A stretch of DNA of 64,000 nucleotides from Candidatus Hydrogenedentota bacterium. GTDB taxonomy: Bacteria > Hydrogenedentota > Hydrogenedentia > Hydrogenedentales > JAJRTN01. The notes under the pieces were generated by a model. The model was not told where the DNA came from. It ran no database searches and saw only the letters and a program-made list of their open reading frames with translations. A program made the translations under genes and the position numbers. The stretch spans positions 1 through 64,000 of the forward strand of contig JAJRTN010000002.1 of assembly GCA_024278275.1 (NCBI GenBank). The letters run 5' to 3'. Shown here one piece after another: positions 38,249-54,706 of this stretch (its first letter is position 1; each line of letters opens with the position of its first letter).

Positions 38249-41200
38249 TCATGGCGTGGGTTCCGGCGAGGCGTAGACCGTCACGTTGTCCACCGCGAAG
38301 CCCGGGAGGAAGTTGATGTTCTGATCACCGGAATCAAAGAGGAACTGTACGTTGATGTCGGAACCCCGGAAGCGGGAGATGTCGATGACCGCCGTGTACC
38401 AGTTCACCACGGAACCGGGAGGAAGGATTTTCGCCTGGCCTCCATCGGGGATGGGAGCATCATCGCAAAGTTGGAAGATAACGGCTTTCACGACACCCGC
38501 GCCGTCGCTGTTGTCGGCCAGGGTTTCAAAGCCACTGCCGGACTCGAAGACAAGCACCGCGGCGTAGTCCGTCGTGCTGCCGGAAGCGCCTTCCGTGATG
38601 AGGAAATAATTGAACACGAGCGTCGCGGTCCCCGCGCCACCCGGCAGGGAAATGGTGGGCGAGGTGGCCAGTCCGCCCGTCGCCTGCCCCGTATCATAGT
38701 CGCATGTGTCGTCCTGGCCGAAATAGAGCATGGTGGGGGTGCCGTCGATGGCGTTGGGCCCGTAACACGCCGCCGAGCGGTGCCACAGTCCGTTGCCGCT
38801 GCCCGCGGTGTTGTCCAGAATGAAGCCGTCGAGATCCACCTCAAAGCCGGCCTGGTAGACCAGGGCGCCCCGAGGCAAACCGCCGTCGGGACAAACGGTC
38901 CCGTTCTCCAGTGGGCAAATACCCTCGATAAACACCGTCCGAATGGATTCACCCGTGTTGCCCGCGTTATCCGTGGAACGATAGATGACCTGGTACTCTC
39001 CGCGTGTCTGCATGTTCACGCCGGACACGTCGATCTGAACCACGGTCTCTCCATCGCATTGGTCGATGGCGGTTGCGCCGGGAATCAGGAGATATCCCCC
39101 ACAATTCAGGTGGAGTGGTCCCGGATCAACCTGGGTAATCTCCGGTGGAATCGTGTCCTCGACGATAACCGTACGCGTGCGCGAAGCGGTATTGCCCGCG
39201 GCATCGGTAGCCGTGTAGACCACCAGGAAGCTGCCGGTGACGCTGGTGTTTTCGTCGATGACATTTATCTCCAGGAAGGGATCAGGATCACAGTTGTCTT
39301 CGGCCACGGCACCCAGTTCCTCGTAAGACGTCCCGCATTCAACGGTCTGCACCGAGGGGCCGATGAAGGTTATGCCTGGCGGCGTCGTGTCTTCCACCAC
39401 CACCGTTCGGCTTCCCGTGGCCGTGTTCCCCGCGCCGTCCGACACACTGAACCCGACGGCGTACGTACCGGGTACGGTCGTGTCCACCTGGCTGTCATCA
39501 ATGGTTACATTGTTCAGGTCGCCTTCGCAGGTGTCGGTCGCCACGGCACCCGGGTCGACATAGGGATCGCCGCACTCCACGGTGAGAGGATCCGCCCCAA
39601 GAATCTCCAGCACCGGTGGAGTGGTGTCCTCGACGATGACCGTGAGTTCCACGGTGCCCGTGTTTCCGGCGCCATCGGTGGCGGAATAGGTTACCGTGTA
39701 GGTGCCGGGCGCAAACAGGTCCAGGCCGCCCGTGTCCCGGTCGACCGGGATGGGGGTCTGCGTGTCGCACGTGTCGGTGGCGGACGCGCCCGGTATGGGC
39801 GTATTGCTTCCACACTCGATATGAAGCGGGGGACCATCGAATGGCTCAAGTTCGATATCCGGCGTCGTCGTGTCTTCCACGGTCACGGTTCTCGTGACCG
39901 GATCGGCCTCGGCCCCGAAAATATCCGAGGCGGTATAGGTGAGCGTGTACTCGCCCGGCGTGCCCGCATCGACCGTGCCGCTGATGTTCAAGCGATGGCT
40001 GATATCACCACTCTCGGGATCGCTGACAACAGCACCCGCTTCTTGATAGGGGGTGCCACATTCCAACGTGAGGGCCCCGTCGCCGATAAGCGTGATCGTG
40101 GGCGGCTGGTTGACCGCCGTAATCACCACGCCGTCGGGCAGACTGTCCACCGTGCCGTCGTTCACAATAAGCTGGAACACGTAGTCGCCGGGCGCCTCGG
40201 GGAAGAAGGACGGGGTGGGCGAAGTCACGTCGTCCAGAATAAAGTCGAAGGGGCCGGCTTTTTCCTGCTGATCCCCGCCGAGAGGAACAGACAACACGCT
40301 CCATCGATAGGTAAGCGGGTCATTGTCCACGTCGAAGCTGCCCGTGCCGTCCAGCATGACATCGTCGGTGATGGGCACCTCGCGATCAGGCCCGGCGTCG
40401 GCCACCGGCGGCGTGTTCTCCGTGGTCACCTGCACCGTGTCCGGCGCGCTGTCCGCCGTACCGTCGTTCACGATGAGTTGCAGCACGTAGGTGCCCGCCA
40501 CATCGATGATAAAGGACGGTGTCGCCGTGTCCGCACCCACGAGTTGCGCGGTGCTTTTCGCCGGCCCGCCCTGCTCCGGTTTCGACAGGAAGCTCCAGGA
40601 ATAAGTCAGGGGGTCGTTGTCCACGTCGAAGCTGGCCGTGCCGTCCAGGGTAATGGTATCGAACACGCGGCCGGTCTGATCGGCCCCCGCGTCGGCCACG
40701 GGCGGGGTGTTCTCCGTGGTGACCACCACCGTGTCCGGCACACTGTCCACGGTGCCGTCATTCACGACCAGTTGGAAGATGTACGTGCCCCCGGCTTCAA
40801 TCGTGAAGAACGGCTGCACCGCCGTGGCGTCGTTCAACAGTGCCGACGGGTCGGCCACGCCATCGGGCGAAGAAACAACACTCCATGCGAAAATGAGGGA
40901 ATCACCATCCACGTCGGAACTGCCGCTGCCGTCCAGGGTGATGGTGTCAAACACGCGACCGGACTGATCCGGGCCGGCGTCGGCCACGGGCGGGCTGTTT
41001 TCCGTGGTGATCACCACCGTGTCCGGCGCGCTGTCCACCGTGCCATCGTTTACGATGAGCTGCACCACGTAAGTACCGGGCAGATCAATGACGAAAGTCG
41101 GCGTGGGCGAGGCTGGGTTGCTCAGGGTGGCCGTGCTTTGATCAGGGCTTACCCCGGGCACGGAGAGGAAGCTCCAGGCGTAGGTCAGGGGATCGCCGTC

Positions 41201-44200
41201 CACGTCATGGCTCCCCCCGCCGTTGAGGGTCACCATGTCGGTAACGAAGTGGGTTTGATCGGGACCCGCGTCGGCTACGGGCGGGCTGTTCTCCGTGGTG
41301 ATCACCACCGTGTCCGGCGCGCTGTCCACCGTACCGTCGTTCACCACCAGTTGCAGCACATAGACACCCGGCAGGTCGATCACAAAGGTGGGCGATACTG
41401 CGGTGGGGTCGTCAAGCACGGCGGCACTCTTGGTGGCGCCCCCCGACGGCTTCGATACGAAACTCCAGGCATAGGTGAGCGGATCGCCGTCCACATCGGA
41501 GCTTCCGCTGCCGTTAAGGGTCACCGTTTCCGTGACCAGCCGGGTCTGGTCTGGGCCCGCATCGGCCACGGGCGGGCTGTTCTCCGTGGTGATCACCACC
41601 GTGTCCGGCGCGCTGTCCACCGTACCGTCGTTCACCACCAGTTGCAAAATATAGGTGCCCGGCAGGTCGATAACAAAGGTGGGCGATACCGCGGTGGGGT
41701 CGTCAAGCACGGCGGCACTCTTGGTGTCGCCTCCCGACGGCTTCGATACGAAACTCCAGGCATAGGTGAGCGGGTCGCCGTCCACGTCGGAGCTTCTGCT
41801 GCCGTTGAGGGTCACCGTTTCCGTGACCAGCCGGGTTTGATCAGGGCCCGCGTCGGCCACGGGCGGGCTGTTCTCCGTGGTGATCACCACCGTGTCCGGC
41901 GCGCTGTCCACCGTACCGTCGTTCACGATGAGTTGCAGGACATACTGGCCGGGAAGGTCAATGACGAAAGACGGGCCAACAGCGGCGGGATCATCGAGCG
42001 CGGCCGTGCTTGTCGTCGTGCCGTCCGCGCCCCGTGGCACGGGAAGGAAGCTCCAGGAATAGGTGAGGGGATCGCCGTCCACATCGCTGCTGCCACTGCC
42101 GTCGAGCGTGACTCTTTGGGTTACGAGGCGGGTCTGGTCCGGCCCCGCGTCGGCCACTGGAGGACTGTTTACCGTACTCACCACCACCGTATCGGGGGCA
42201 CTGTCCACGGTGCCATCGTTCACCACCAGTTGGAGAATGTACTCGCCGGGGAGATCCACCACGAAGCTCGGACTGACGGCGGTGGGATCGTCGAGAACGG
42301 CGTTGCTTTTTGCGCCGCCCTCATCTCCCGGCTTGGAGACAAAACGCCAGGAGAAAGTGAGCGGGTCGCCGTCCACGTCGCTGCTGCCCCGGCCATCCAG
42401 CGTGGCCGTCTCGGTGACCCGCCGCGTCTGGTCCGGCCCCGCGTCGGCCACGGGAGGACTGTTTACCGTGCTCACCACCACCGTATCGGGGGCACTGTCC
42501 ACGGTGCCATCGTTCACCACCAGTTGGAGGATGTACTCGCCGGGGAGATCCACCACGAAGCTCGGGTTTACCGCGGTGGGGTCATCCAGGGTGGCCGTAC
42601 TCTCACCCCCCTCGCCCCCTCCCGGCCGGGACACGAAACGCCAGGAATACGTCAAGGGATCGCCGTCCACATCGCTGCTGCCTCGGCCATCCAGCGTAGC
42701 CGTTTCGGTGACCCGCCGCGTCTGGTCCGGCCCCGCGTCGGCCACGGGAGGACTGTTCTCCGTGCTCACCACCACGGTATCCGCTTCGCTGTCCACCGTG
42801 CCGTCGTTGACGACAAGCTGCAAGACATAGTTGCCGGGGAGATCCACCACGAAACTCGGGCGCACGGCGGTGACATCGGTCAAAGCCGCGGCGCTGCCCG
42901 CCGGCATGGAGACAAAGCGCCAGGCATAGGCCAGGGGATCACCATCCACGTCACTGCTGCCGCTGCCATCCAGCGTGGCCGTCTCCGTCACGAGGCGGGT
43001 TTGATCCGCCCCCGCGTCGGCCACGGGCGGACTGTTCTCCGTGCTCACCACCACGGTGTCCGGTTCGCTGTCCACCGTGCCGTCGTTGACGACAAGCTGC
43101 AAGACATAGTTGCCGGGGAGATCCACCACGAAACTCGGGTTTACCGTGGTGGGGTCATCCAACGTGGCCGTGCTTTTCCCGCCCTCATCGCCTTCGGGCC
43201 GGGACACAAAGCTCCAGGAATAGGTCAGGGGGTCACCATCCACATCGCTGCTGCCGCTGCCGTCCAGCGTGGCCGTCTCGGTGACCAACCGCGTCTGGTC
43301 CGGCCCCGCGTCGGCCACGGGAGGACTGTTGTCCGTGCTTACCACCACGGTGTCCGCTTCGCTGTCCACCGTGCCATCGTTGACGACAAGCTGCAAGACA
43401 TAGTTGCCGGGGAGATCCACCACGAAACTCGGCGTGACGGAGGTGGGATCGTCCAGAACCGCCGCGCTTTTATCGCCTGAGTTCCCTTCGGGTTTGGAGA
43501 CAAAGCTCCAGGCAAAGGTCAGGGGATCGCCGTCCACGTCGCTGCTGCCGCTGCCATCCAGCGTGGCCGTCTCCGTCACGAGGCGGGTTTGATCCGCCCC
43601 CGCGTCGGCCACGGGCGGGCTGTTGTCCGTGCTCACCACGACGGTGTCCGGCTCGCTGTCCACCGTATCGTCATTAACGACAAGTTGCACCACGTAATCG
43701 CCCGGCACATCAATGGTGAAACGCGGACTCACCGTATCCGCGCCGTTCAGCGCGGCGGCACTGCCCCCGGGGATGGAAACAAAGCTCCAGGAGAAGGTCA
43801 GGGGATCGCCGTCCACGTCGCTGCTGCCGCTGCCGTCCAGCGTGGCCGTCTCCGTCACGAGGCGGGTTTGATCCGGCCCCGCGTCGGCCACGGGCGGACT
43901 GTTGTCCGTGCTCACCACGACGGTGTCCGGCTCGCTGTCGGCATCACCGTCGTTCACCACCAGTTGAATCACGTAATCACCGGGCGCGTCGATGGTGAAA
44001 CGGGGAGACACGGAGGCCGCGTCGCTCAGCTCGCTCGAACTGAGCGCGGGACGGGAGACGAAACTCCAGGAAAAAGTCAGGGGATCGCCATCCGCATCTG
44101 AACTGCCGCTGCCGTCAAGCGTGGCCGTTTGCCCGACGAGACGGGTCTGATCCGGGCCGGCATCGGCCGTGGGGACCGTGTTGAGCGTACTCACCACGAC

Positions 44201-45463
44201 GGTGTCCGGGGCGCTGCTGTCCCAGGGATCGCTTACAACCAGCCGCGCCGTGTAAAGCCCCGGCAGGTCCGCCGTGAAGGTGGGTTGGGCCGAAGCCGGG
44301 TTATCCAGCGCGGCCGTGCTGCCCGCCGGAAAACCCACCAGTTGCCACGCGAACGTAAGGGGGTCGCCATCCGGGTCGAAGCTGCCCCGGCCGTCGAGCG
44401 TGACGGCGGCCCCCAGCACCACGCGATGATCCGGGCCGGCCTTCGCCACGGGAATCCCGTTGGTCGCCGTCACCACCACGGTGTCGGGGGCGCTGTCGTT
44501 CCAGGGGTCGCTTACGACCAATTCCACCGTATAAACGCCCGGCAGATCCGCCGTGAAAGCGGGTTGCGAAGCCGCGGGATCGTCCAGCACGGCCGTGCTG
44601 CCCACCGGGACATTGACCAACAGCCAGGCAAACGTCAGGGGATCCCCGTTCGGATCCGAACTGTTGCGGCCGTCCAACGTGACCACCGTCCCCGGTGACA
44701 CATTCTGATCATTCCCGGCGTCGGCCATGGGTATTCCGTTGGGCAGCATTTCAACGGTCACGGTATCGCTGTCCGAGAGGCTTCCGTCATCGACGGTAAG
44801 CTCGAATACATAGGCACCCGCCACATCCGGCGTCACGGTGGGATTCGCGCTGTTGGCCCCGTTTATGTTTTCGGTGGAAAGCCGGCTGGCCTCCGGCACG
44901 GTGAGCAGCACCCACGCGAAAGCCAGGGGATCCCCGTCGGGATCTTCCGAGCCGCTGCCATCGAGTTGTACTTCCGTGTTGAAGCCGACCTGCTGGTCCA
45001 CGCCCGCGTCCGCCACCGGCGGTTGATTCGGATCGGTGATGGTGATGAACGCCGGTTTCTTCAGTTCAATCACAACCGTTTCGTCCGCCTTGGCGCCCGG
45101 CGGATTCTCGGAAACCGTTACGGACAGGGTAATGTCGAAAACACCCGCGGTGTTGTACACATGCGTGGCGGTCCGACCGGCACCCCGGGCGCCATCGCCA
45201 AAGTCCCACGCCCACCCCCGGACATAAAGCATGGACGCGCCGGGGTCCTCACCGCGAAACTTCTCCGCGAGCACGTAGGGATCCACCGCCTCGGCCGTGC
45301 CCACGAAAGTAACCGATGTTCCGGGCGGGCCGCTGTGGGGCGCGCCGTCGAAATCGATGATGACACGGTCTCCCACGGGACAACCGGCGAGCATGCACGC
45401 CGCGAAGAGAACCACTGCCACACCGAGGGTCTTGGATGATACCCGCCAGTGCATTCTATTCAT
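38249..45463 (-). CDS. giant PKD-repeat surface lipoprotein (2404 residues)
   Basis: The ATG at 45463 follows a good GAGGAG site. The N-terminus ends in CMLAGCPVG, a lipobox, so the protein is lipid-anchored. Residues about 35-140 form a classical PKD domain (WAWDFGDGARGAGRTATHVY). Residues about 144-1780 hold 17 tandem PKD/REJ-like units of about 96 residues, most starting NSPPVADAGPDQTRLV and containing LDGSGSSDVDGDPLT. Five DUF5011/HYR-like units follow (ECGTPYQEAGAVVSD; VEDTTPP linkers). From about 2180 to the end a jelly-roll-like domain (ALVYQAGFEVDLDGF...) resembles lectin or MAM-type binding modules. An adhesin or a carbohydrate-binding surface stalk is likely. Calcium sites are suggested by the DxDGDPL loops. 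No peptidase or sorting motif was seen. The central repeats are nearly identical in DNA, so copy number may vary or be mis-assembled. Confidence 0.85.
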   Translation of the reverse strand: MNRMHWRVSSKTLGVAVVLFAACMLAGCPVGDRVIIDFDGAPHSGPPGTSVTFVGTAEAVDPYVLAEKFRGEDPGASMLYVRGWAWDFGDGARGAGRTATHVYNTAGVFDITLSVTVSENPPGAKADETVVIELKKPAFITITDPNQPPVADAGVDQQVGFNTEVQLDGSGSEDPDGDPLAFAWVLLTVPEASRLSTENINGANSANPTVTPDVAGAYVFELTVDDGSLSDSDTVTVEMLPNGIPMADAGNDQNVSPGTVVTLDGRNSSDPNGDPLTFAWLLVNVPVGSTAVLDDPAASQPAFTADLPGVYTVELVVSDPWNDSAPDTVVVTATNGIPVAKAGPDHRVVLGAAVTLDGRGSFDPDGDPLTFAWQLVGFPAGSTAALDNPASAQPTFTADLPGLYTARLVVSDPWDSSAPDTVVVSTLNTVPTADAGPDQTRLVGQTATLDGSGSSDADGDPLTFSWSFVSRPALSSSELSDAASVSPRFTIDAPGDYVIQLVVNDGDADSEPDTVVVSTDNSPPVADAGPDQTRLVTETATLDGSGSSDVDGDPLTFSWSFVSIPGGSAAALNGADTVSPRFTIDVPGDYVVQLVVNDDTVDSEPDTVVVSTDNSPPVADAGADQTRLVTETATLDGSGSSDVDGDPLTFAWSFVSKPEGNSGDKSAAVLDDPTSVTPSFVVDLPGNYVLQLVVNDGTVDSEADTVVVSTDNSPPVADAGPDQTRLVTETATLDGSGSSDVDGDPLTYSWSFVSRPEGDEGGKSTATLDDPTTVNPSFVVDLPGNYVLQLVVNDGTVDSEPDTVVVSTENSPPVADAGADQTRLVTETATLDGSGSSDVDGDPLAYAWRFVSMPAGSAAALTDVTAVRPSFVVDLPGNYVLQLVVNDGTVDSEADTVVVSTENSPPVADAGPDQTRRVTETATLDGRGSSDVDGDPLTYSWRFVSRPGGGEGGESTATLDDPTAVNPSFVVDLPGEYILQLVVNDGTVDSAPDTVVVSTVNSPPVADAGPDQTRRVTETATLDGRGSSDVDGDPLTFSWRFVSKPGDEGGAKSNAVLDDPTAVSPSFVVDLPGEYILQLVVNDGTVDSAPDTVVVSTVNSPPVADAGPDQTRLVTQRVTLDGSGSSDVDGDPLTYSWSFLPVPRGADGTTTSTAALDDPAAVGPSFVIDLPGQYVLQLIVNDGTVDSAPDTVVITTENSPPVADAGPDQTRLVTETVTLNGSRSSDVDGDPLTYAWSFVSKPSGGDTKSAAVLDDPTAVSPTFVIDLPGTYILQLVVNDGTVDSAPDTVVITTENSPPVADAGPDQTRLVTETVTLNGSGSSDVDGDPLTYAWSFVSKPSGGATKSAAVLDDPTAVSPTFVIDLPGVYVLQLVVNDGTVDSAPDTVVITTENSPPVADAGPDQTHFVTDMVTLNGGGSHDVDGDPLTYAWSFLSVPGVSPDQSTATLSNPASPTPTFVIDLPGTYVVQLIVNDGTVDSAPDTVVITTENSPPVADAGPDQSGRVFDTITLDGSGSSDVDGDSLIFAWSVVSSPDGVADPSALLNDATAVQPFFTIEAGGTYIFQLVVNDGTVDSVPDTVVVTTENTPPVADAGADQTGRVFDTITLDGTASFDVDNDPLTYSWSFLSKPEQGGPAKSTAQLVGADTATPSFIIDVAGTYVLQLIVNDGTADSAPDTVQVTTENTPPVADAGPDREVPITDDVMLDGTGSFDVDNDPLTYRWSVLSVPLGGDQQEKAGPFDFILDDVTSPTPSFFPEAPGDYVFQLIVNDGTVDSLPDGVVITAVNQPPTITLIGDGALTLECGTPYQEAGAVVSDPESGDISHRLNISGTVDAGTPGEYTLTYTASDIFGAEADPVTRTVTVEDTTTPDIELEPFDGPPLHIECGSNTPIPGASATDTCDTQTPIPVDRDTGGLDLFAPGTYTVTYSATDGAGNTGTVELTVIVEDTTPPVLEILGADPLTVECGDPYVDPGAVATDTCEGDLNNVTIDDSQVDTTVPGTYAVGFSVSDGAGNTATGSRTVVVEDTTPPGITFIGPSVQTVECGTSYEELGAVAEDNCDPDPFLEINVIDENTSVTGSFLVVYTATDAAGNTASRTRTVIVEDTIPPEITQVDPGPLHLNCGGYLLIPGATAIDQCDGETVVQIDVSGVNMQTRGEYQVIYRSTDNAGNTGESIRTVFIEGICPLENGTVCPDGGLPRGALVYQAGFEVDLDGFILDNTAGSGNGLWHRSAACYGPNAIDGTPTMLYFGQDDTCDYDTGQATGGLATSPTISLPGGAGTATLVFNYFLITEGASGSTTDYAAVLVFESGSGFETLADNSDGAGVVKAVIFQLCDDAPIPDGGQAKILPPGSVVNWYTAVIDISRFRGSDINVQFLFDSGDQNINFLPGFAVDNVTVYASPEPTP

Positions 45464-45675
45464 GAGATGACTCCTCGTAGTGCTCAGGTCACACACAGGC
45501 ACCAGGCACACCACCTCCCCGCCGGTCCCGGCCAACGCGATGACCGTACACACTTCCGATAGTACGCATGCTGCTCAAATCTATATCGTTATGGGGCATT
45601 TTATCATGCCTCGTGCCATTGGGCAACGCGACAAAAAACAAGGCAAAAAACAAGGCCGATGGTTGTCGATTGTTT

Positions 45676-48343: not shown

Positions 48344-48372
48344 TTGGCTTTACGTGAGTTCCATGGTATAGT
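48344..48372 (+). promoter_or_regulatory. promoter of the HTH/zinc-finger gene
   Basis: TTGGCT (48344-48349), a 17-bp spacer and TATAGT (48367-48372), with transcription starting near 48379, about 16 nt before ATG 48395. Confidence 0.6.
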
Positions 48373-48394
48373 TTATTGGATTGATGGGAATCCA

Positions 48395-48757
48395 ATGGAG
48401 AACGTGTTGGACCGTGACATCCTCACCATGGCCCAAGTGGCCGAAGCCCTTTCCATGGAAGCGCCCTCCGTTCGGGCCTTGCTTGAAGCGGGAGAACTCC
48501 CCGGCCGGCGTATTGGCTATCAATGGTATGTCACCCGCCGCAAGCTGCTGGCCTTCATCGAAGGCGGAGAGGCCGGCTCAGACCGGTCGGCGTCCGCGCC
48601 CAAACCGCCGCCTTCGGTGGACACCAATGTCTTCCCGTTGAATAATGGATGGCGTTGCGGTCGCTGCGACCAGGCGAACGAGCCCGACCGAGTGGAATGC
48701 GCACACTGCGGACGGGCCCGCTCCGTGCCGCTGATCAACTTTCGGTTGGGGACCTGA
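48395..48757 (+). CDS. excisionase-type HTH fused to a RanBP2-type zinc finger
   Basis: A 120-residue protein. Residues about 6-55 (ILTMAQVAEALSMEAPSVRA...YVTRRKLLAFIEG) form an excisionase/MerR-like winged helix. A proline/serine linker follows, and residues about 89-110 read WRCGRCDQANEPDRVECAHC, which fits W-x-C-x2-C-x3-N-x6-C-x2-C, the RanBP2-type zinc ribbon. That finger is best known in eukaryotic RNA- and ubiquitin-binding proteins and is uncommon in bacteria. The function is unknown; nucleic-acid binding by both ends is plausible. The start at 48395 was chosen by the domain edge and promoter; the Shine-Dalgarno is weak. Its 3' end overlaps the convergent VanZ gene by 23 bp. Confidence 0.7.
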   Translation: MENVLDRDILTMAQVAEALSMEAPSVRALLEAGELPGRRIGYQWYVTRRKLLAFIEGGEAGSDRSASAPKPPPSVDTNVFPLNNGWRCGRCDQANEPDRVECAHCGRARSVPLINFRLGT

Positions 48758-52059: not shown

Positions 52060-54162
52060 ATGTTGAAGAGCGAAACCGCGGCATCCAACACGGGAGACGG
52101 GAATATGTTTCAGGTTCGGGAACGATTCAGGCTGGACGAGTCTTTTTTGGCGCAGTACCGGGGCAAACAGCCGGATTGGGGCCCACTGGGATATATCACC
52201 TTCAAGCGAACCTACGCGCGCGTGGTGCCGGAGGAGAACGGGCGCACCGAGGAGTACTGGGAAACGGTACGGCGCGTGGTCGAGGGCTGTTACACCATTC
52301 AATGGAACCACTGCCTCAGTTTGAAGCTTCCCTGGAAGTCCCACAAGGCCCAACGGTCGGCCCAGGAAATGTTCAAGCTCATGTGGGGCTTCAAGTTCCT
52401 GCCCCCGGGCCGCGGCCTGTGGATGATGGGGTCGGACTACATCTACAAACGCGGGTCGGCCGCGCTGAACAACTGCGCCTTCGTTTCGACCGATGAGCTC
52501 GACACCGATTTTGCCGAACCCTTCTGCTTCCTCATGGACCTCTCCCTGCTGGGCGTGGGCGTGGCTTTCGACACGAAGGGTGCGGGCACGGTCACCATCC
52601 AGGAGCCGCAGGTGGGCGAGTACACCCACGTGGTGGAGGACTCCAAGGAGGGGTGGTGCGACCTGGTGCGGGTGGTGCTGAACAGCTTCGTGGGCCGCGC
52701 GCGCCGGCCCGCCCACATCGACTACGGCAAGATCCGCCCCATGGGCGCGCCCATCAAGACCTTCGGCGGTATCGCGCCCGGTCCCGGGCCGCTCATCGAG
52801 TGCATCGAGAACATGACCAAGATTCTCTCCCCCCGCGCGGGCTACCCCATCTCCTCGACCGACATCACCGACCTGATGAACGTGGTGGGCAAGTGCGTGG
52901 TGTCGGGCGGTGTGCGCCGCACGGCGGAACTCGCCCTGGGCAACCCGGAGGATGAGGAGTATCTCCAGCTCAAGGATCCGAAACTGCACGGCGACAAACT
53001 GACGGCGTGGCGCTGGGCCTCGAACAACAGTGTGGCGGCCGTGGAGGGCATGGACTACGGCGCCGTGGGCGCACAGACCGCGAAGAACGGCGAGCCGGGC
53101 TACTTCTGGCAGGCCAACGCGCGGGCCTTCGGCCGCCTGAAAGACGGTGCCAACTGGATCGACGACAAGGTGGCGGGGACCAATCCCTGCGCCGAGCAGA
53201 GCCTCGAATCCTACGAGATCTGCAACCTGGTGGAGACCTTCCCCTCGCGCCATGAAACCTTCGAGGAATACCAGCGCACCCTCAAGTTCGCCTATCTCTA
53301 CGCGAAGACCGTCACCCTCATCCCCACGCACAACGAACGCACCAACGCCATCATGCTGCGCAACCGCCGCATCGGCCTGTCTCAATCGGGCATCGTCGAA
53401 AGTTTCCAACGTCACGGGCGGCGCGAACATTTCAAGTGGTGCGACAAGGGCTACGACTACATCTGCAAGCTGGACAAGATCTACGCCCAATGGCTGTGCG
53501 TGCCCATGAGCGTGAAGAAGACCAGCGTAAAACCCAGCGGCACCGTGTCCCTCCTGCCCGGCGTTACGCCCGGCATCCACTATGCCCACTCGGAATACTA
53601 CTGGCGCACCATCCGCATCGACAAAACCAGTCCGCTCATCGAACCACTGCGCAAGGCGGGCTACCGCATCGAGGAGTCGGTCTATGGTGATAACACGTGG
53701 ATCGTGTACTTTCCGGTGAAAGAGCGCTTCTTCGAACGTTCCAAAACAGACGTGAGCATCTGGGAACAGGTGGAAAACGTGGCGCAAATGCAACACTATT
53801 GGGCCGACAACCAGGTGAGCGCCACCATCACGTTCAAGCCGGAAGAGGCGAAAGACATCCCCTATATTCTCGAGCTGTATGAAACGCGGCTCAAATCCAT
53901 CAGCTTCCTGCCGCTCACCGATCACAGCTACGCCCAGGCACCGTACCAGACCATCACCGCCGAAATGTATGACCAGGCCGTGGCCAAATTGCAGCCCCTG
54001 GACTTCGAGGCGCTTAACACGGACGAGGCACAGGACATTTTCTGTGACGGCGACAAATGCGAAATCAACGTGGCCGCCCACATGCCCGAACAACAGGAGA
54101 TCGCAGCGGAATCCGCGGAAGTCCCGCCCGCCGAGGAAAACGAGGTCGGCGTGCCTTCCTGA
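52060..54162 (+). CDS. nrdJ: adenosylcobalamin-dependent ribonucleotide reductase (class II, monomeric RTPR type)
   Basis: A 700-residue class II enzyme that reduces ribonucleotides using coenzyme B12, so it works with or without oxygen. ALNNCAFVS holds the first redox cysteine, GTNPCAEQSLESYEICNL the active-site cysteine and glutamate segment with the second redox cysteine, and SVKPSGTVSLLPGVTPGIHY the phosphate-binding region. The C-terminal FCDGDKC carries the thiol pair that re-reduces the active site. The length is close to the Lactobacillus RTPR type (about 740). It starts 17 bp after the thyX stop behind AGAAGGGGGATTCATACG, so DNA-precursor genes are co-expressed. A large hairpin follows the stop. 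Confidence 0.92.
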   Translation: MLKSETAASNTGDGNMFQVRERFRLDESFLAQYRGKQPDWGPLGYITFKRTYARVVPEENGRTEEYWETVRRVVEGCYTIQWNHCLSLKLPWKSHKAQRSAQEMFKLMWGFKFLPPGRGLWMMGSDYIYKRGSAALNNCAFVSTDELDTDFAEPFCFLMDLSLLGVGVAFDTKGAGTVTIQEPQVGEYTHVVEDSKEGWCDLVRVVLNSFVGRARRPAHIDYGKIRPMGAPIKTFGGIAPGPGPLIECIENMTKILSPRAGYPISSTDITDLMNVVGKCVVSGGVRRTAELALGNPEDEEYLQLKDPKLHGDKLTAWRWASNNSVAAVEGMDYGAVGAQTAKNGEPGYFWQANARAFGRLKDGANWIDDKVAGTNPCAEQSLESYEICNLVETFPSRHETFEEYQRTLKFAYLYAKTVTLIPTHNERTNAIMLRNRRIGLSQSGIVESFQRHGRREHFKWCDKGYDYICKLDKIYAQWLCVPMSVKKTSVKPSGTVSLLPGVTPGIHYAHSEYYWRTIRIDKTSPLIEPLRKAGYRIEESVYGDNTWIVYFPVKERFFERSKTDVSIWEQVENVAQMQHYWADNQVSATITFKPEEAKDIPYILELYETRLKSISFLPLTDHSYAQAPYQTITAEMYDQAVAKLQPLDFEALNTDEAQDIFCDGDKCEINVAAHMPEQQEIAAESAEVPPAEENEVGVPS

Positions 54163-54180
54163 CCTGCACCAGGATACGTA

Positions 54181-54228
54181 CCATGAAAAGCGGGGCGCTT
54201 CCCTTGGGAAGCGCCCCGCTTTTCATGG
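54181..54228. terminator. 48-bp near-continuous perfect palindrome after nrdJ
   Basis: CCATGAAAAGCGGGGCGCTT followed by CCC, then TT, then the exact reverse complement of the first arm: two 23-bp arms with a 2-base loop. The A-run/T-run inside the arms makes it a plausible bidirectional terminator. Its perfection and its position at the edge of an IS4 fragment also fit a mobile or recombination-derived palindrome. Confidence 0.6.
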
Positions 54229-54298
54229 CGAGTACCAATGAGGAAGGCCTTGATGTACCAAACGCAAATGTTGATGACGAGACCGCCATGTCATAAAA

Positions 54299-54706
54299 AC
54301 ATAACTCGAGCAAGTCGTGCAGCCGCACCACCGTGCCGTCGATGGCCATGAGATCGATAAACGGGGAAAGCCGTCTGCCCAAGGCGCGCGCGGGACCGGC
54401 GCTCTTCTGCAGCACCTCCAGCAGGATACGCTGGAGCCATTGGGCCAGGGCCGGGGTGAAGCGGTCGTAGAAGGCCGAGGGGACCAAGGGAGTGCCCGTA
54501 TGAAGGGCGTAGCAACGGCGCAGGCTCGCCAGGGATTTCTCCGCCCCCGCGCCAAAGCCCGGCACCAGCGTCCAGAAAAACGCCATGGCATTGACCTTTC
54601 GGGCGCGGCGGATGAAGCCCGCCTCACGCGCGGTCTGTTCCAAGCGGCTGGGGGAAATTACACTGGACAACACGCGTCGAACCTCGATAGCGTGTGTACG
54701 GGCCAT
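54299..54706 (-). pseudogene. IS4-family transposase, N-terminal fragment
   Basis: From ATG 54706, MARTHAIEVRRVLSSVISPS...RRARKVNAMAFFWTLVPGFG and then LMAIDGTVVRLHDLLE match the N-terminal and first catalytic-aspartate region (IDGT) of IS4 transposases. Resemblance stops after about 130 residues; the frame continues into unrelated sequence that reads through the palindrome at 54181-54228 and the nrdJ 3' end. The second half, including the remaining DDE residues, is missing. It is the counterpart of the C-terminal piece at 1-159, but on the opposite strand. Its upstream edge (about 54780-54800, CGCTTAACCG) abuts the BRCT fragment. Confidence 0.75.

Follow-up and report, generated by a model that had tools for sequence, protein, structure and literature searches.

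The window analysed here is a 64,000-nt stretch of a Hydrogenedentota contig (JAJRTN010000002.1, positions 1–64,000). It contains an open reading frame that encodes 120 residues from an ATG codon and ends in ...WRCGRCDQANEPDRVECAHCGRARSVPLINFRLGT, with a helix-turn-helix (HTH) domain, a linker, a zinc finger and a short conserved tail (Table 1). A 120-residue frame with an exact W-x-C-x2-C-x3-N-x6-C-x2-C motif had been proposed in a sequence-only reading of this DNA and is borne out, with a refinement at the N-terminus: because the relatives begin with M-[DE]-[KR]-[DE]-I-L-T in the alignment and the spacing of a GGAG element is best for TTG 48407, the true product is probably 116 aa long. The upstream neighbour is a HAD-like gene; on the other side, a VanZ-like gene runs convergently and shares 23 bp with the 3′ end of the frame. 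We consider the finger gene most likely to be a monocistronic, chromosomal regulator gene of Hydrogenedentota.

Table 1. Features of the finger gene and its upstream region in the window.
Feature	Position	Strand	Basis or remark
Sigma-70-like promoter, TTGGCT N17 TATAGT, TG before the −10 box	48344..48372	+	Two such sites in 700 bp versus 0.1 expected
Perfect 8-bp inverted repeat, ATTGGATT-GATGGG-AATCCAAT (6-nt spacer)	48375..48396	.	Over the presumed transcription start
HTH + zinc-finger protein	48395..48757	+	120 aa from ATG 48395; probable start TTG 48407 (116 aa)
Shine-Dalgarno-like GGAG	48397..48400	+	6 nt before TTG 48407; inferred from sequence
HTH_17 winged-helix DNA-binding domain, residues 10–57	48422..48565	+	Pfam E 1.1e-8; fold match
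Pro/Ser-rich linker, residues 58–85	48566..48649	+	pLDDT 49–50 around residues 61–80
RanBP2-like C4 zinc finger, W86 to C105	48650..48709	+	Alignment, profile, predicted fold
Conserved tail R-x2-P-L-[IVLM]-x-[FY], residues 109–116	48719..48742	+	R109, P112, L113 invariant 8/8

The gap between the HAD-like gene and the frame holds the promoter-like site. That the gene has a promoter of its own, as previously suggested, is plausible: besides TTGGCT-N17-TATAGT at 48344–48372, a similar TG-extended −10-like box (TGGTA...) was read by eye upstream of at least five relatives (L009, L010, L011, L013 and L014). Perfect inverted repeats like the one at 48375–48396 number 16 in the 64 kb, with ~0.03 expected in its interval. 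Since this repeat is absent upstream of all seven relatives, we rejected it as a conserved operator; it is a possible candidate operator limited to the source species.

The N-terminal domain of the 120-aa protein matches HTH_17 (PF12728) above the gathering cutoff (35.7 bits versus 27), and HTH_17 is present in all eight members of the family (Pfam, E ≤ 1). An AlphaFold2 model of the protein was obtained with a mean pLDDT of 74, values of 75–91 over the finger blocks and a pTM of 0.41. According to Foldseek, the predicted HTH fold is nearest to BldC, Pukovnik Xis, RdfS and HiNmlR, with the BldC structures 6ama and 6amk among the top matches; the very small size of both domains keeps the E-values weak, 0.035 being the best. 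Streptomyces BldC resembles the protein in its predicted winged-helix fold and in having a single small DNA-binding domain, but it lacks a zinc finger and shares ~25% identity in the aligned domain. A defence-system search with the HTH protein yielded just a weak match to the HTH of MADS mad1.

The C-terminal module carries the finger motif exactly (W86-x-C88-x2-C91-x3-N95-x6-C102-x2-C105). Seven full-length relatives, at 36–45% identity, occur in other families of the same Hydrogenedentota order, and W86, C88, C91, C102, C105, R109, P112 and L113 are invariant over all eight members, while the linker varies. Given that seven relatives at this identity all keep the Trp and the four Cys, and that ~0.005 motif occurrences per genome are expected by chance (a crude equal-base estimate), the conservation pattern indicates that the motif is not a chance occurrence. 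The RanBP2-type consensus is W-x-C-x2-4-C-x3-N-x6-C-x2-C (PMC6384913), which the window protein and three relatives match exactly; the other four replace its Asn with His or Tyr (N, H, Y, N, H, N, N, H across the eight members). The expectation that close homologues would keep the motif thus held for the Trp and the four Cys, but for the Asn in only half of the members.

We searched the PDB with a profile of the family finger alone. Its 22 best matches were RanBP2-type fingers, led by Nup153 (8e-6), MDM2 (1.3e-5) and TAB2 (3.8e-5); rubredoxins and ribosomal zinc ribbons ranked below them. With single sequences, PF00641 matched five of the eight members at E ≤ 1 (best E 4e-5; Pfam), the window protein itself not being listed; no member was shown to pass the gathering cutoff, the best relative reaching 25.4 bits versus 27 in the genome search. 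In the model, the finger has the small two-hairpin fold that in RanBP2-type fingers surrounds one zinc, and it superposes on TRABID NZF1 with an rmsd of 0.5 Å and a target TM-score of 0.86, MDM2 and Nup153 being matched too (Foldseek). In sequence and predicted fold the module is therefore RanBP2-like, and the joining of an excisionase-type HTH to such a finger, as first proposed, is upheld by the profile-to-PDB matches, the predicted fold and the relatives. The family shares with the PF00641 fingers of MDM2, Nup153, TRABID and TAB2 the W-x-C-x2-C-x10-C-x2-C pattern, the predicted fold and the best PDB matches, but differs in its variable Asn, in having neither a Thr-Phe pair nor an RNA platform, and in the additional R-x2-PL tail.

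A C4 finger of ~25 residues can arise by convergence, and RanBP2-like denotes here a resemblance rather than established descent. The module could accordingly be a generic bacterial zinc ribbon with a structural or dimerising function, its likeness to RanBP2 being convergent. Pfam Zn_Ribbon_1 also matches five of the eight members, and the hallmark Asn is missing from four. Furthermore, other Hydrogenedentota proteins of ~340–370 aa (L123, L117) contain a short C4 zinc ribbon followed by a P-x-L-x-G-Y-like tail (P-[ST]-[LM]-[IL]-G-Y) resembling that behind the family finger. Such ribbons were nevertheless outscored by RanBP2 fingers in the profile-to-PDB search, and Trp-x-Cys is invariant in the family, so we regard this explanation as unlikely.

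The nearest HTH relatives within Hydrogenedentota carry a Cys-rich tail (CC...CC...CC) in place of the finger. These HTH_17 proteins of ~76–97 aa were found at nine loci (L136–L144; e.g. L137:8729-8959). In a tree of 53 HTH columns, eight Cys-tail proteins form one clade (96/94), which joins the finger clade with a support of 88/84; the finger clade alone receives just 72/81. Their neighbourhood is strongly conserved and comprises ArsF-family and ArsG-family genes, often with NuoE/NuoF-like oxidoreductases, and PQQ-like repeat proteins were noticed nearby by eye. By these neighbours the Cys-tail proteins are candidate redox or metal regulators, and the tree suggests a single HTH lineage with exchangeable C-terminal Cys modules, the finger and the Cys-rich tail being alternatives within one largely uncultured phylum.

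The Cys tail of the sister clade and its ArsF/ArsG/NuoE/NuoF-like surroundings keep alive a reading in which the C-terminal module is a thiol or metal switch, with zinc release or Cys oxidation altering DNA binding, since both clades place Cys residues behind the same HTH. The finger clade, however, has a structured C4 site with a conserved Trp and tail, and neither in the window nor in the relatives does a conserved redox or metal system adjoin the finger gene. A sensor of this kind is accordingly quite unlikely.

No gene neighbourhood of the finger gene is conserved across families; only one genus (g13) retains an adjacency. In its four genomes (L038, L039, L042 and L043), the finger gene immediately precedes a gene for a PcrA/UvrD-type helicase, followed in L043 by a gene for a pentapeptide-repeat protein and by ruvC. 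This arrangement may indicate a role in DNA repair and not in transcription. It would also suit a nucleic-acid-binding finger that engages single-stranded RNA or DNA and works with the HTH, as would the RanBP2-like sequence and fold and the fusion to a DNA-binding domain.

The residues of the finger argue against such a role. The RNA-binding subset of RanBP2 fingers, exemplified by ZRANB2, uses D4, N14, an aromatic residue at position 17, R19, R20 and N24 (PMC6384913). The eight family members have, in order, GNGAEATR, QNEAEALE and EPGEGDSP at the first three of these positions and DEELEEED, RLIRLRYV and ASALPRPS at the last three, so that, with the numbering as we mapped it, 4 of 48 cells match. 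The aromatic residue and Arg19 are absent from all eight members, position 19 being acidic or Leu; Arg20 occurs in three, and the central loop is acidic. With the ZRANB2-type contacts missing, binding of single-stranded nucleic acid by the finger appears doubtful indeed.

Ubiquitin-binding NZF fingers are distinguished by a Thr-Phe pair after the second Cys. The pair is visible in TAB2 among the PDB matches and in none of the eight family members. The RNA or ubiquitin binding that the sequence-only reading had suggested by analogy with eukaryotic fingers is thus not supported by the residues at either set of positions. The nearest eukaryotic analogues that likewise lack Thr-Phe are the fingers of MDM2 and Nup153, and their partners in the matched structures are proteins (RPL11 with MDM2 in 4xxb, Ran with Nup153 in 7mo2; Foldseek). 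Because these analogues bind other proteins, we favour protein docking for the family finger.

The complete architecture was detected in 8 of the 68 Hydrogenedentota genomes sampled, with a patchy distribution. When named genomes of bacteria and archaea were scanned, only two Hydrogenedentota had it, the other matches being to the HTH alone, and none of 392 Planctomycetota genomes contained it at 1e-12; a single Planctomycetota match was discarded as a family member, having a stop and no in-frame finger. Phages gave no match, plasmids matched the HTH part only and never over the full length, and viral contigs contained an HTH fragment only. A possible paralogue in the same genome (C49, E 0.02) lies in a frame with no credible gene and was treated as chance. 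These searches bear on a further reading, in which the protein would serve an integrated element as its excisionase, a recombination directionality factor. The HTH_17 domain is similar to Xis and RdfS, and a PHROG excisionase profile matches at 2e-6. We nevertheless reject this role as highly improbable because no mobile element is linked: the inspected genes near the window gene and near its relatives include no integrase, the 64-kb window has no tRNA, and there was no phage or full-length plasmid match. The NCBIfam excise model (TIGR01764) also scores the 120-aa protein below its curated cutoff (22.1 versus 28.8 bits). The phage and ICE excisionases Pukovnik Xis and RdfS, alike in the HTH_17 fold, lack the extra finger.

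The finger motif itself is more widespread. Searched as DNA, the exact pattern occurred in 82 of the 193 Myxococcota genomes sampled and in 20 of the 199 from Planctomycetota, a reversed-pattern control being nearly empty in both phyla. It was also present in 6 of 68 Hydrogenedentota genomes: four correspond to the family architecture (that of the window protein and of three relatives), one to a short and apparently fortuitous frame and one to an unrelated protein. By these motif counts, RanBP2-like fingers are not uncommon in some bacterial phyla, contrary to what had been assumed of bacteria at large. The Myxococcota (L152–L163) and Planctomycetota (L164–L175) proteins that we read share the exact motif with the family but are mostly larger and have no HTH partner; those from Myxococcota contain one or more exact motifs, and several start with a second W-x-C finger. 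The proposed search for the finger and its domain partners in bacterial genomes thus recovered the motif widely, but no HTH of this type joined to it outside the family in the loci read. Among the papers searched, none was found to describe an HTH fused to a RanBP2-like finger. To call the protein a new class of regulator was an overstatement, as both modules are known; what is new is their combination, which has been met so far in some Hydrogenedentota only.

Taken together, the protein is best explained, with a probability of roughly one half, as a DNA-binding regulator of the BldC kind that has a promoter of its own and docks a protein partner through its tethered zinc finger. From the computed features (gene, promoter-like site, domains, zinc-site conservation and predicted fold), we infer a mechanism in which the BldC/Xis-type winged helix would bind double-stranded DNA and zinc held by the four invariant Cys would stabilise the finger. 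Cooperative or head-to-tail assembly on DNA, often with indirect readout, is described for HTH_17 proteins such as BldC, RdfS and lambda Xis (PMC11963761), and by analogy the family probably also binds cooperatively and head to tail. The flexible linker would present the RanBP2-like finger and the R-x2-PL-[IVLM]-x-[FY] tail; the most likely ligand of these two is a partner protein, not ubiquitin or RNA of the GGU type. The targets are probably in trans, because neighbours are not conserved between families and only one genus shows the helicase adjacency; a promoter of its own fits a regulator acting in this manner. If the finger docks a partner, the protein would represent a simple bacterial case of gene regulation by modular recruitment, and as a small and tractable bacterial protein it would open a RanBP2-like finger to study without ubiquitin or splicing. 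More tentatively, and rather less probably, the family could be a class of adaptors in which the BldC-like HTH recruits RNA polymerase, a PcrA/UvrD-like helicase or a ribosomal protein through an independently recruited RanBP2-type finger; if true, a eukaryote-like protein-docking finger would be at work in bacterial regulation.

Elsewhere in the window, a perfect 23-bp inverted repeat (54181–54228) lies inside an open reading frame on the reverse strand (54065–54706) that has no Pfam match at 1e-5 and reads like a transposase fragment. On the same strand, positions 38249–45553 encode a 2434-aa protein with ~16 PKD repeats and bacterial surface Ig-like domains.
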